From Methanosarcina spelaei (GTDB lineage Archaea > Halobacteriota > Methanosarcinia > Methanosarcinales > Methanosarcinaceae), in NCBI RefSeq assembly GCF_002287235.1, contig NZ_LMVP01000212.1, forward strand, positions 1 to 38,704: a DNA stretch of 38,704 nt, given 5' to 3'. Position 1 is the first letter of the stretch, and every line of letters begins with the position of its first letter. The translations under genes were made by a program, and so were the position numbers. The notes under the pieces were generated by a model, which was not told where the DNA came from, did not search any database, and was given only the letters and a program-made list of their open reading frames with translations. Positions 21,579 through 26,262 of this stretch are shown here, one piece after another.

Positions 21579-23135
21579 TCAAAGCATGCTTGCGGTCAAA
21601 ACTTCCATATCAGCAGGAACCTTGGCTATGTTTCCTATCTTTACACCTATAAGGTTCTTAATTGCGTTACTTGAGGCAATATCAACGAGTCTCTGAGTAA
21701 TTACGCCATCAAAAACTACACTCTGGATATTGTCTTTATAAGTTTTCAGCCTGCTCGCAAGGTCCCTAACTGCAATCTCCTCTATTATTTTATCCTGAGA
21801 GTCAAGAATTCTGGCCGTTAAAGTTCCTTTTAGAGCTTCGACATGAGATCTGAACCTGGCGGCTTCACGCGAAACCGGGACAGTTTTTACTGGGGCAGGA
21901 GAGACCCTGACCGCCTCACCTCCAGGAACTTTAACGGTTGCCGGAACTTTCTCAACAGGCTTTTCTCTGGGAACTCTGACAGCAGTAGTAACTGCCCTTG
22001 CTGAAATCTGAGGTTTTGCGACAACATATCTTGTTTTGACTTTTTCTATAGTCGCAGGAACTATTTCCGAGACTTTTTCAGCAGTTTTTTCAGTAACCTT
22101 TTCAAAAGCTTTTACAGGCACTGTTCCTTTCGTTTCTTCTTCCTGGAGTTCCTCCCCATAAAGATCTGGCTTTGAAGAGACTCTGTGAACTTTAATACGC
22201 TTGTGCAACTTCTTTTCTGCAATCCTGGGAGCAATTTCAGGTGCCCTGATCTTTCTTTTAGAGCTCCTCTCCACTCTGCAGGGGCTTTCTTCATTTTCTC
22301 TCTCCTGGATTCCGTATTTCTCGATAATCTGCTCTACAGGAACTTTCCGACGAAGAGCTCGTATAACTTCTTTCTGGACAAGATCTTCAACGCATTTTCC
22401 GTCGGGGGCACGGGAAACATAGTCAATGTCTGCCACTTGAAGGAGTTCACGTATTATAAGTTCTCCTCCACGGTCTCCGTCAGTAAAAGCTGTTACTGTT
22501 TTCTTTTTAGTTAGCTCTGCAACTTCCGGAGGAATGTTTGTCCCTCCTACACAAATGGTATTCTTTATACCATAACGGAGCAGGTTCAGAATGTCAGCTC
22601 TCCCCTCAAGAATAATGATAGCGTCTGAGTTAAGTACATTCGGTCCACAGGGAATTCTGGACTTTCCATAGTAAGTAAGTTCATCAACTCTTACAGACTG
22701 TCGGACTTCATCCGCCAATTCCTGGGATTCGGGCACGGTTTCATCAAACATCTTGGTAAAAATGAGTTTTGCCCTTTCGATAATCTTCTTTCGCTTTACA
22801 GCTCTTACATCTTCTACCTGGAAAACCTCGATTTTGGCGCTGCATGGCCCCACTCTGTCAATAGTCTCAAGTGATGCGGCAAGAATTGAGGTTTCGACTT
22901 TATCAAGGCTTGAGGGAACAAAGATATTTCCTTTGGTCTTTCCTCCTTTAGCCGTAACCATTACCTCGATCCTGCCAATCCTGCCAGTTTTTTGCAGGTC
23001 ACGGAGATCAAGATCAGCCCCAAGTAATCCCTCAGTTTGCCCAAAGATCGCACCTACGATATCAGGACGTTCAATTACCCCATCCGCATTAATCTTAGAA
23101 TGAATGATGTATTTTGTAGTATCTGTATTTTGCAT
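21579..23135 (-). CDS. dnaG: DnaG-type primase / exosome-associated DnaG
   Basis: Archaeal DnaG homologue. Known family members are found with the RNA exosome and have some primase activity in vitro. The TOPRIM domain shows the catalytic Glu in ILEGRAD (residues 175-181) and the acidic DGDRGG at 219-224. The N-terminal archaeal DnaG region ([20 protein letters not shown]) is present. Residues from about 260 to 400 are a long charged, Val/Pro-rich linker before a C-terminal domain of about 100 residues. The start is ATG 23135 with gaggag seven bases upstream; an in-frame ATG at 23150 lies inside that ribosome binding site. Confidence 0.92.
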
Positions 23136-23367
23136 GTGAATTCTCCTCATATATTGTGAATGATTTATCGTGATAATTTTATTAAATTAAATTCACTAGG
23201 AATTCCATTCCTAACAATTATAATCATCGCAATTGTGAACTTGTTCTGATAATTGTGCCTTTTGGTTTTGTGAATTATATCCGCCGAGTTTCCCGACATT
23301 ATAAACTATTCGCTAGATTCCGAAAACTCGTAAAGCTCTGAACAATGCAAAAATAGTAAAAAATCAG

Positions 23368-23747: not shown

Positions 23748-23807
23748 AACTTTTCAATTAACCTGATAACTTTTCAATTAACCTGATAACTTTTCAATTA
23801 ACCTGAT
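23748..23807. repeat. 20-bp tandem repeat, three copies
   Basis: The unit aacttttcaattaacctgat occurs three times in a row without change, within the dnaG upstream intergenic region. Confidence 0.85.
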
Positions 23808-24429
23808 TCTGCGATTCTCAAGAAATACCCTTAAAAACGGGTAATTCGGGCACGAAGCCGATATATGCCAGATACCTTATCCCGTGGTTTAGGGGCTCTG
23901 TAGTGGTAACTGATAAGCGGTAAGTGAAGTGAAATTTATATCAGGTTTATCGAGAGTACTTTTTGACTTAGCACTTTTTGACTTTTACTTCATGGGTGAA
24001 GATATATGAATTAAAGTTCTACGTTGAGTGGTTATTTTAACCCTGAGTATAATGTAGTTAATCTGAAGTTTTTATTATATTTGCATGTGAATTAATTACA
24101 TTGGATTATCTTTACGAATTTAGCAATGGTGATTAGGTGAAGTTGTTAATCAATGATATAATCTGACAGAACAGTTCCTCCCACCTTTAAAGGAGTCTTG
24201 GCAACTGAGGAAACCTGTGCGTCACGTATTTTTAAATTCATGTAATTAATGCCTGCAGGATTTAAGAACTTTGTGGTTATTTAAAAAGTTTTATCAAATT
24301 AAAGTCATTTTTCATGCCGATGTCTTGAAGATAAGATACTTTCAAAACAACTCCAGAAGAAGTCCTTTAGAATAGGTCAGAAGAAACTCAAAAAATTTAA
24401 AGAATAATAGAGTCGAAAATTTAGAAAAG

Positions 24430-24540
24430 TATATATAAAAAAAAAGACTTGTAAAAAATTGAACGGGCGAGACATAGAAACTTTTTTATGTACTAACCCC
24501 CCACTCCCAAACTCGCTCGTTCAGCCCCCCTGAACACTAT
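24430..24540 (+). ncRNA. Candidate small RNA with competing hairpins and a C-rich loop
   Basis: A strong TATA box (tatatataa, about 24430-24438) predicts transcription from about 24461. There GAACGGGCGAG (24461-24471) can pair over 11 bp, with one G-U, to CTCGCTCGTTC (24512-24522). The enclosed loop has a small ACATA/TATGT hairpin and a single-stranded C-rich stretch (accccccactccc), which could bind G-rich ribosome binding sites. GTTCAG (24519-24524) can instead pair with CTGAAC (24530-24535), and this excludes the outer end of the long stem. The next gene has its own TATA-like sequence near 24703, so an independent RNA is favoured over a leader. Confidence 0.45.
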
Positions 24541-24738
24541 AGGTCCTTTTCACGATTTTCCGGATTATGCCAGAGACCTATTTTCATGTCGGAGAGATAG
24601 ATTTTTAAGTAGTTCATCCTTCAAAAATTCCTGATTAAATAATCTTGATAAATCGCTTTGAGATTTTCCACTTACTAACCTCAAAATTTTCGGTCACTTA
24701 AAAACTTATAATAGGTGTGAAACACAATTACTGAGAGT

Positions 24739-26262
24739 ATGGGAAGCGATTTTGGCACAGAAAGTATTATACATGAAACCCAGAAACCAGCCGAAATTGA
24801 TGGAAAATTTCAGGGAGTAGTATCTGCACAGAAACTAGAAGAAGATCCTGTAAAAGTGGTTATTATAGGAGGGGGAGCCTGTGGCATGGCGGTTGCTACC
24901 AAAATTCGAAGACAGAGCGATTTTAAAATTACAGTGATTTCAAGGGATTCACATACTGCTTATAGCCATTGCGGAATCCCTTTTGTTCTGGGACGGGAAA
25001 TTGAGAGTTTTGAAAAATTAATAGTGAAACCAAAAGATTTTTTCAAAAGAAGTCAAATAGATGTCAGGCTAAACGAGTGCGCCAACTCAATAGATCTGGA
25101 TTTAAAAGTTGTTCGGACAGGAGAAGGGATTTATCCTTTTGACAAACTCGTTATCGCCACAGGCAGTCTACCCTTTATACCTCTAACAGGCAGCACAAAT
25201 GTTCTCCCTTACGGTGTTTTTACTCTGAGGAGTCTTGATGATGGAGTACTTTTCGAAAAAGCCATGGAAACTGTTAAGAGAGTCTGCATAATAGGTGGAG
25301 GGACAATAGGAATAGAGTGTGCAGTGGCACTTTCAAGAAGGAGAATTAAAACCTACCTCATAAGCCGAAGTAAAAACCTGCTTTCCAGGCAACTGGACCC
25401 AGACATTTCCGAAATCGTAAGAGAACATTTGAAAAGTCTCGGGATTGAAGTCGTTTCTGGGGAGCCTGCAGCTTTTCCTGAAAATTTTCGGAAAGAAAAA
25501 ACACTATATGTAGGGAATAGGCAGCTTCCTGCAGATCTTGTACTTCTTGCAAGTGGAGTTAGACCTGAGATATCCCTTGCCCTAGATGCTGGTATCGAAA
25601 TAGGAAAGGCAGGAGGAATAATTGTAAATGAAATGCTCCAGGTTAAGGCAAGAAATAAGGCAGGAGAAGAATTTCTTCCCTACGTGTATGCAGGTGGGGA
25701 ATGTGTAGAGGTAATAGACCTTATAACAGGGGAAGCAAAACTAGGTCAGCTGGGTACAACAGCTCGGCATATGGCCGATATAATCGGCAATAATATCACA
25801 GGAAAATATACTCCTCTCGGGCCGCTTGTCAACCCCTGGGTAGCCGTGGCAGGAGACTTACAATTTGGCGGAGTTGGTATTACCTCAAAAGAGGCTGAAA
25901 GCCATGGAATAAAGATAAGCACAGGATTCTCCACTGGGCGTACAAGAGCTTCCTATTATCCGGGCTGGAAAGATCTGTACATTAAACTTCTGTTTAAAGA
26001 CGATGTTCTGGTAGGTGCACAGCTTGCCGGAGGAGAAGGGATAAAGGAAAGGATCGATACCTTTTCCCTTGCAATTCGAAAGACAACTACAATTAGAGAC
26101 CTTCTTGACCTGGAGACTTGCTATGCACCACCCGTCTCTATGCTTGTGGACCCTCTCAGACCAGCTGTAAAAGCTGCAGTTCGAAATAAAAAAGAAAGGA
26201 AAGGAAACAGAAGAAAGGTAAAAAAGGAAACAGAAGAAAGGCAGTCGGATAACGTAAGATGA
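24739..26262 (+). CDS. CoA-disulfide reductase / NADH oxidase-like flavoprotein
   Basis: Pyridine nucleotide-disulfide oxidoreductase of the single-cysteine group (CoA-disulfide reductase, NADH oxidase, NADH peroxidase). The FAD-binding VVIIGGGACGMAVATKI is near residue 39 and the redox Cys78 lies in YSHCGIPF. The NAD-binding CIIGGGTIGIECAVAL is near 180. The second FAD motif YVYAGGECVEV is near 315, and a C-terminal dimerisation domain is present. It has a 35-residue N-terminal extension and a basic low-complexity tail after residue 475. It may reduce CoA or other thiol disulfides or oxygen, an oxidative-stress role by inference. rtcA follows after 25 bases, so co-transcription is likely. 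Confidence 0.8.
   Translation: MGSDFGTESIIHETQKPAEIDGKFQGVVSAQKLEEDPVKVVIIGGGACGMAVATKIRRQSDFKITVISRDSHTAYSHCGIPFVLGREIESFEKLIVKPKDFFKRSQIDVRLNECANSIDLDLKVVRTGEGIYPFDKLVIATGSLPFIPLTGSTNVLPYGVFTLRSLDDGVLFEKAMETVKRVCIIGGGTIGIECAVALSRRRIKTYLISRSKNLLSRQLDPDISEIVREHLKSLGIEVVSGEPAAFPENFRKEKTLYVGNRQLPADLVLLASGVRPEISLALDAGIEIGKAGGIIVNEMLQVKARNKAGEEFLPYVYAGGECVEVIDLITGEAKLGQLGTTARHMADIIGNNITGKYTPLGPLVNPWVAVAGDLQFGGVGITSKEAESHGIKISTGFSTGRTRASYYPGWKDLYIKLLFKDDVLVGAQLAGGEGIKERIDTFSLAIRKTTTIRDLLDLETCYAPPVSMLVDPLRPAVKAAVRNKKERKGNRRKVKKETEERQSDNVR

Follow-up and report, generated by a model that had tools for sequence, protein, structure and literature searches.

Does the intergenic region in front of a disulfide-reductase-like gene of Methanosarcina spelaei encode a small RNA, and if so, what would its loop do? 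The question was raised by an annotation of the window, i.e., the whole 38,704-nt stretch of contig NZ_LMVP01000212.1 analysed here. This sequence-only reading proposed a small RNA that starts with an 11-bp stem behind a TATA box, has mutually exclusive hairpins and exposes a loop resembling an anti-Shine-Dalgarno sequence.

Closing stem and promoter

The strands GAACGGGCGAG (24461-24471, plus strand) and CTCGCTCGTTC (24512-24522, plus strand) form 11 bp including one G-U, just as the sequence-only reading had described, and U24460-A24523 is a possible additional pair of this closing stem. The hairpin has a folding z-score of -6.1, with equal stability reached by none of 200 dinucleotide shuffles, and the stem has a probability of 0.98-1.0 in the window ensemble. 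When the whole intergenic region is shuffled, a comparable G+C-rich 11-bp stem arises in 1/100 cases. Folding also gives an inner hairpin of 8 bp (24472-24491, plus strand), which comparison restricts to the lineage near the window, i.e., it is not conserved in the family. ARAGORN reported no tRNA.

Compensatory changes, proposed earlier as a check on the stem, are found across its relatives. We aligned 45 diverse relatives with MAFFT, i.e., without fitting to structure, and observe that 9 of the 11 pairs changed on both sides with pairing kept, the covariation score being reached in 0/500 shuffles. In the same alignment 91.5% of the positions concerned are paired (0/500 shuffles as good), a percentage inflated by selecting rows by their match to a model containing the stem, although this selection does not create two-sided changes. 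RNAalifold recovers the same stem unaided from this MAFFT-alone alignment, with double changes in 9/10 pairs. The model-fitted alignment shows two-sided changes in 9/12 pairs (102 such cells; 0/500 shuffles as high). Sliding the partner strand by one column reduces the pairing to about 36-40%. Within the genus, one stem position alternates between G-U, A-U and G-C.

Upstream of the stem, a BRE-like TTTAGAAAAG (24420-24429, plus strand) is kept across Methanosarcina and is followed by the TATA box TATATATAA (24430-24438, plus strand), whose first and last bases lie 31 and 23 nt before the stem, respectively. The spacing recurs in the family: among 124 distinct hairpins, gathered by motif (including ACTCC) and stem, the TATA-to-stem distance peaks at 28-32 nt, and the interval -50 to -15 holds a TATA-like sequence matching at 7/8 or better in 104 of them vs. 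18 for a control interval. The conserved unit spans about 24460-24523, plus the promoter from about 24420.

These observations support a small-RNA gene with its own promoter and a predicted transcript start at or next to 24461. Many family copies are opposed by a convergent gene 30-200 nt away, from which short RNAs are to be expected; a run of at least 5 T is found within 60 nt downstream of just 52/124 hairpins, such that termination would proceed without a clear mark. The predicted RNA probably has a length of 65-100 nt. Taken together, covariation, promoter spacing and the class-wide conservation given below strongly support the small RNA as proposed, its transcript being a prediction.

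Distribution and copy number

With a 201-nt query, we recover the element from 29/31 Methanosarcina genomes and from 24/24 of the good ones. The Methanosarcina alignment shows conservation of the loop, of the stem and of the promoter from TTTAGAAAAG on, while family-level matches show the same loop with diverged flanking stems. Two covariance models were built from family members (ten and fifty sequences, respectively), so that matches to those sequences follow by construction, but the wider matches do not. With the first, we find members in 100/112 genomes of the family and 172/186 of the order, including 117/118 of the order's high-quality genomes. With the second, 87 of 393 phylum genomes have matches. 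Of these, 70 belong to the order and 14 to a single additional family within the class; the remaining three lie elsewhere and match weakly (E 4e-4 to 9e-3), and two of them, on inspection, are without the C-motif. The inspected members from the sister family show the same TATA box, stem, U-tract and loop. Given this evidence, the hairpin very probably belongs to a genuine, conserved RNA family.

Copies per genome range from 1 to about 25. The window's genome itself carries one further copy with a double motif (contig C533) and two with repeated C-tracts (C175), besides two copies of a related type with a GGGCATCTGG stem (C52 and C190). The upper end is given by two genomes of family f5 with 17 and 25 matches at E <=0.1, among which the weakest are uncertain and several are without a clean C-motif. 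By the make-up of the GTDB class, f5 would be Methanoperedens-like, f3 and f4 ANME-like, and f6 Methanothrix-like. The C-loop family covers methanogens as well as other families of the order, among which the scope of GTDB should place ANME-2 and Methanoperedens-type methane oxidisers. It is expanded in one family of the order, which suggests that it has a role there.

A search of Rfam 15 gave no family above the gathering threshold, and a relaxed threshold yielded weak chance matches outside the hairpin only; the C-loop family is thus absent from Rfam 15. The papers that we searched contain no description of such a family either, though single members may sit as anonymous entries in published RNA-seq tables. 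Conservation beyond one genus is known for few archaeal sRNA families.

Two variants were seen as well. A related subfamily (inspected at six loci) with the stem GGGCATCTGG/CCGGATGCCC and a C-rich loop occurs in 22/31 Methanosarcina genomes with 1-3 copies, some of which have an extra inner hairpin. One Methanosarcina MAG (four loci) contains four diverged window-type copies, some with damaged stems.

Loop design and candidate modes of action

The design of the family is constant, i.e., a stem, a U-tract, a single-stranded UAACCCCCACUCCCCAA and again a stem, with stems that differ between copies. In the window, the U-tract UUUUUU covers 24482-24487 and the conserved single-stranded motif UAACCCCCCACUCCCAA covers 24494-24510 (both plus strand). 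A run of at least four U in the 5' half of the loop is present in 119/124 relatives vs. 35 expected from shuffled loops. The C-rich part is unpaired with a probability of about 1.0 in the window and a mean of 0.97 over the 124 relatives, which confirms the exposure claimed for it. Across the 124 hairpins, the CCCCCACUCC core shows C at 96-100% and A, C and U at 100%; since this core, though not the flanking UAA and CAA, belonged to the search pattern, the covariance-model alignment and the flanks are the fairer basis for judging conservation. The near-invariant loop motif coexists with 75 distinct 5' stem strands. In several members it is doubled or repeated, and a loop mostly has 1 to 4 C-tracts.

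How would such an RNA act? The stem would hold two single-stranded elements open, namely the U-tract and UAACCCCCACUCCCCAA. The former could plausibly be bound by an Sm-like (SmAP/Lsm) protein, and for the latter the likeliest mechanism would be recognition by a protein that binds single-stranded RNA in a sequence-specific manner. In that case, the RNA would work either within a ribonucleoprotein or as a decoy controlling how much of the C-binding protein is free, with a dose given by the number of genes (1 to about 25) and of motifs per loop. A small RNA with its own promoter and these open elements, whose C-element would be protein-bound, is our best explanation of the whole, with a probability of about 0.45. 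It is favoured by a single strand that is near-invariant across paralogues with differing stems, by motifs that are duplicated inside loops and by the variation in gene number. On the other hand, an invariant seed can likewise be maintained among the paralogues of base-pairing sRNAs in bacteria, which counts against it.

The strongest alternative, tentative but to be taken seriously, is a family of trans-acting base-pairing sRNAs, whose C-rich loop would serve as the conserved seed for G-rich stretches of selected mRNAs. It would pair with ribosome binding sites (RBSs) or other sites and block translation or alter stability, perhaps with an Sm-like protein at the U-tract. The loop is open as such a seed needs to be, and PMC3510493 and PMC5867862 report that archaeal sRNA162, sRNA154 and sRNA41 mask RBSs. 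We compared the pairing energies of the loop with 389 gene-start regions from many genomes. The loop prefers gene starts to coding windows (-5.75 vs. -4.82 kcal/mol), and for a few of the starts the energy falls to between -15 and -20 kcal/mol, but these strong pairings are single cases. For 200 sampled regions, the loop reaches -5.67 kcal/mol, while shuffled loops of the same composition reach -5.69 +/- 0.38 kcal/mol, i.e., there is no gain, in a test that would miss a few specific targets. Furthermore, the anti-Shine-Dalgarno core CCUCC is present in 0/124 family hairpins, a count that is partly circular given that members were chosen by the ACTCC motif. Of the anti-Shine-Dalgarno-like loop proposed earlier, accessibility thus stands while a pairing with RBSs above that of shuffled loops does not. 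Since shuffled loops pair equally well and CCUCC is absent from these hairpins, generic Shine-Dalgarno masking is not favoured.

Target prediction with the C-rich loop, another of the proposed checks, points in the same direction. In 12 genomes, the 12-nt loop complement shows no clear enrichment, with roughly 85 matches vs. 70 for the control after hand-removal of family antisense. The inspected perfect complements are the opposite strand of C-loop hairpins, and other near-complements are not much commoner than those of a reversed control pattern. We discarded perfect and near-perfect complements as targets, being mostly family antisense or scattered sites, some of them inside coding sequence. 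The RNA may still have specific mRNA targets. Because the loop is not tuned to RBSs and its complements are not clearly enriched, we slightly favour a protein-bound RNA (ribonucleoprotein or decoy) over a base-pairing sRNA.

As a separate observation, genome G004 contains GAGGAGTGGGGG or GGGCAGTGGGGG (L212, L213 and L215, near 1222), each one mismatch off the loop complement. In several copies, such a site follows the stop codon of a PKD-type surface-protein gene by some 60 nt; the sites are either possible targets or mere gene duplication.

For the protein-bound reading, the closest analogy is given by the decoy RNAs CsrB and RsmZ, which repeat an identical single-stranded motif displayed by stems and vary in copy number. 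Some C-loop members likewise repeat their motif, and copy number varies as well. In contrast, the CsrB/RsmZ motif is GGA while the C-loop motif is C-rich. It is conceivable, though we would not wager on it, that the C-loop RNAs, with 1 to about 25 per genome, are a global post-transcriptional regulator of methane-cycling archaea. Together with a putative protein that binds the C-motif, and perhaps with an Sm-like one on the U-tract, they would then be what corresponds in archaea to the Csr/Rsm decoy system. Owing to the fixed design, the partner can be fished out with one short RNA bait.

Known small RNAs and neighbouring genes

C-rich loops are also known from bacterial sRNAs, e.g., the UCCC types of Staphylococcus and Listeria and the CCUCC types of rhizobia and Rhodobacter, which are often multi-copy. 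Both groups share the unpaired C-rich loop and, often, multiple copies; the C-loop family differs in having no CCUCC, in belonging to another domain of life, in carrying a U-tract in the same loop and in not being tuned to Shine-Dalgarno sequences.

Within the archaea, one genome of 3,072,769 bp (G074), which we take to be Methanolobus psychrophilus R15, has 5-6 C-loop members, with only three copies of one subtype. For this strain, nine conserved cold-induced sRNAs are described in PMC5378194. The cases are alike in that a multi-copy conserved sRNA set occurs in a genome carrying C-loop members, while the numbers differ; the cold-induced sRNAs may or may not be members of the C-loop family.

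The sRNA154, sRNA162 and sRNA41 of M. mazei are likewise intergenic small RNAs with stem-loops and single-stranded regulatory regions. According to PMC3177094, the promoter of sRNA154 carries the NrpR operator GGTA-N6-TACC; reading the sequence of 24380-24460, we find this operator absent from the window copy. Moreover, sRNA154 has about 130 nt, compared to about 65 nt for the core of the C-loop family. sRNA162 has 191 nt and is reported in three Methanosarcina species only, while the C-loop family spans a class. An identity of the window RNA with sRNA41 was considered as well, which comes from the same genus and, according to PMC5867862, is a regulatory RNA that masks the RBSs of acetyl-CoA decarbonylase/synthase mRNAs. 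However, the RBSs at the cdhB and cdhC starts (the cistrons compared) are mostly of AGGAGGC or GGGGGCC type and only weakly complementary to the loop. We give this identity a low probability.

We judge it similarly unlikely that the RNA is a cis-acting leader, rather than a free RNA, of the downstream gene (24739-26262, plus strand), which we named FAD/NAD-linked disulfide-reductase-like from its sequence. The hairpin lies on the same strand about 100-270 nt upstream of the gene in most Methanosarcina, and the arrangement recurs in further genera of this family as well as in a single genome from a different family of the order. The window-type copy has the same downstream gene in 41 inspected loci reaching that other family; in 13 of these, DnaG is recognised upstream (in the window a DnaG primase-like gene, again named from sequence, at 21579-23150, minus strand). 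Nevertheless, comparison shows that the gene has a separate promoter ACTTAAAAACTTATAATAGG (24696-24715, plus strand) right before its start that is kept in Methanosarcina, and many other copies of the family have unrelated or convergent neighbours.

Finally, the mutually exclusive hairpins of the sequence-only reading did not hold up. The alternative hairpin GTTCAG/CTGAAC (24519-24535, plus strand) is present in the window, but with -4.7 kcal/mol on its own it has a probability of 0.0004-0.024 vs. 0.98-1.0 for the main stem; the genus alignment diverges immediately after CTCGTTCA, the second arm is present in the closest relatives only, and most Methanosarcina have lost the downstream half. 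We thus reject a two-state switch as highly improbable, its second structure being neither comparably stable nor conserved.

Some further arrangements were noted around family members. In genome G152 of family f5, two members (L165 and L189, minus strand near 1500) precede paralogous ORFs (MAEYP..., MAEYQ...) by about 60 nt, separated from them by a GAGGTGA ribosome site, an arrangement resembling that of a 5' UTR. In Methanosarcina, the double-motif copy (four loci) has a membrane pyrophosphatase-like gene close by, and this gene is also adjacent to members at three other loci. In the window, upstream of dnaG, a 20-bp unit aacttttcaattaacctgat is repeated three times in tandem at 23748-23807.
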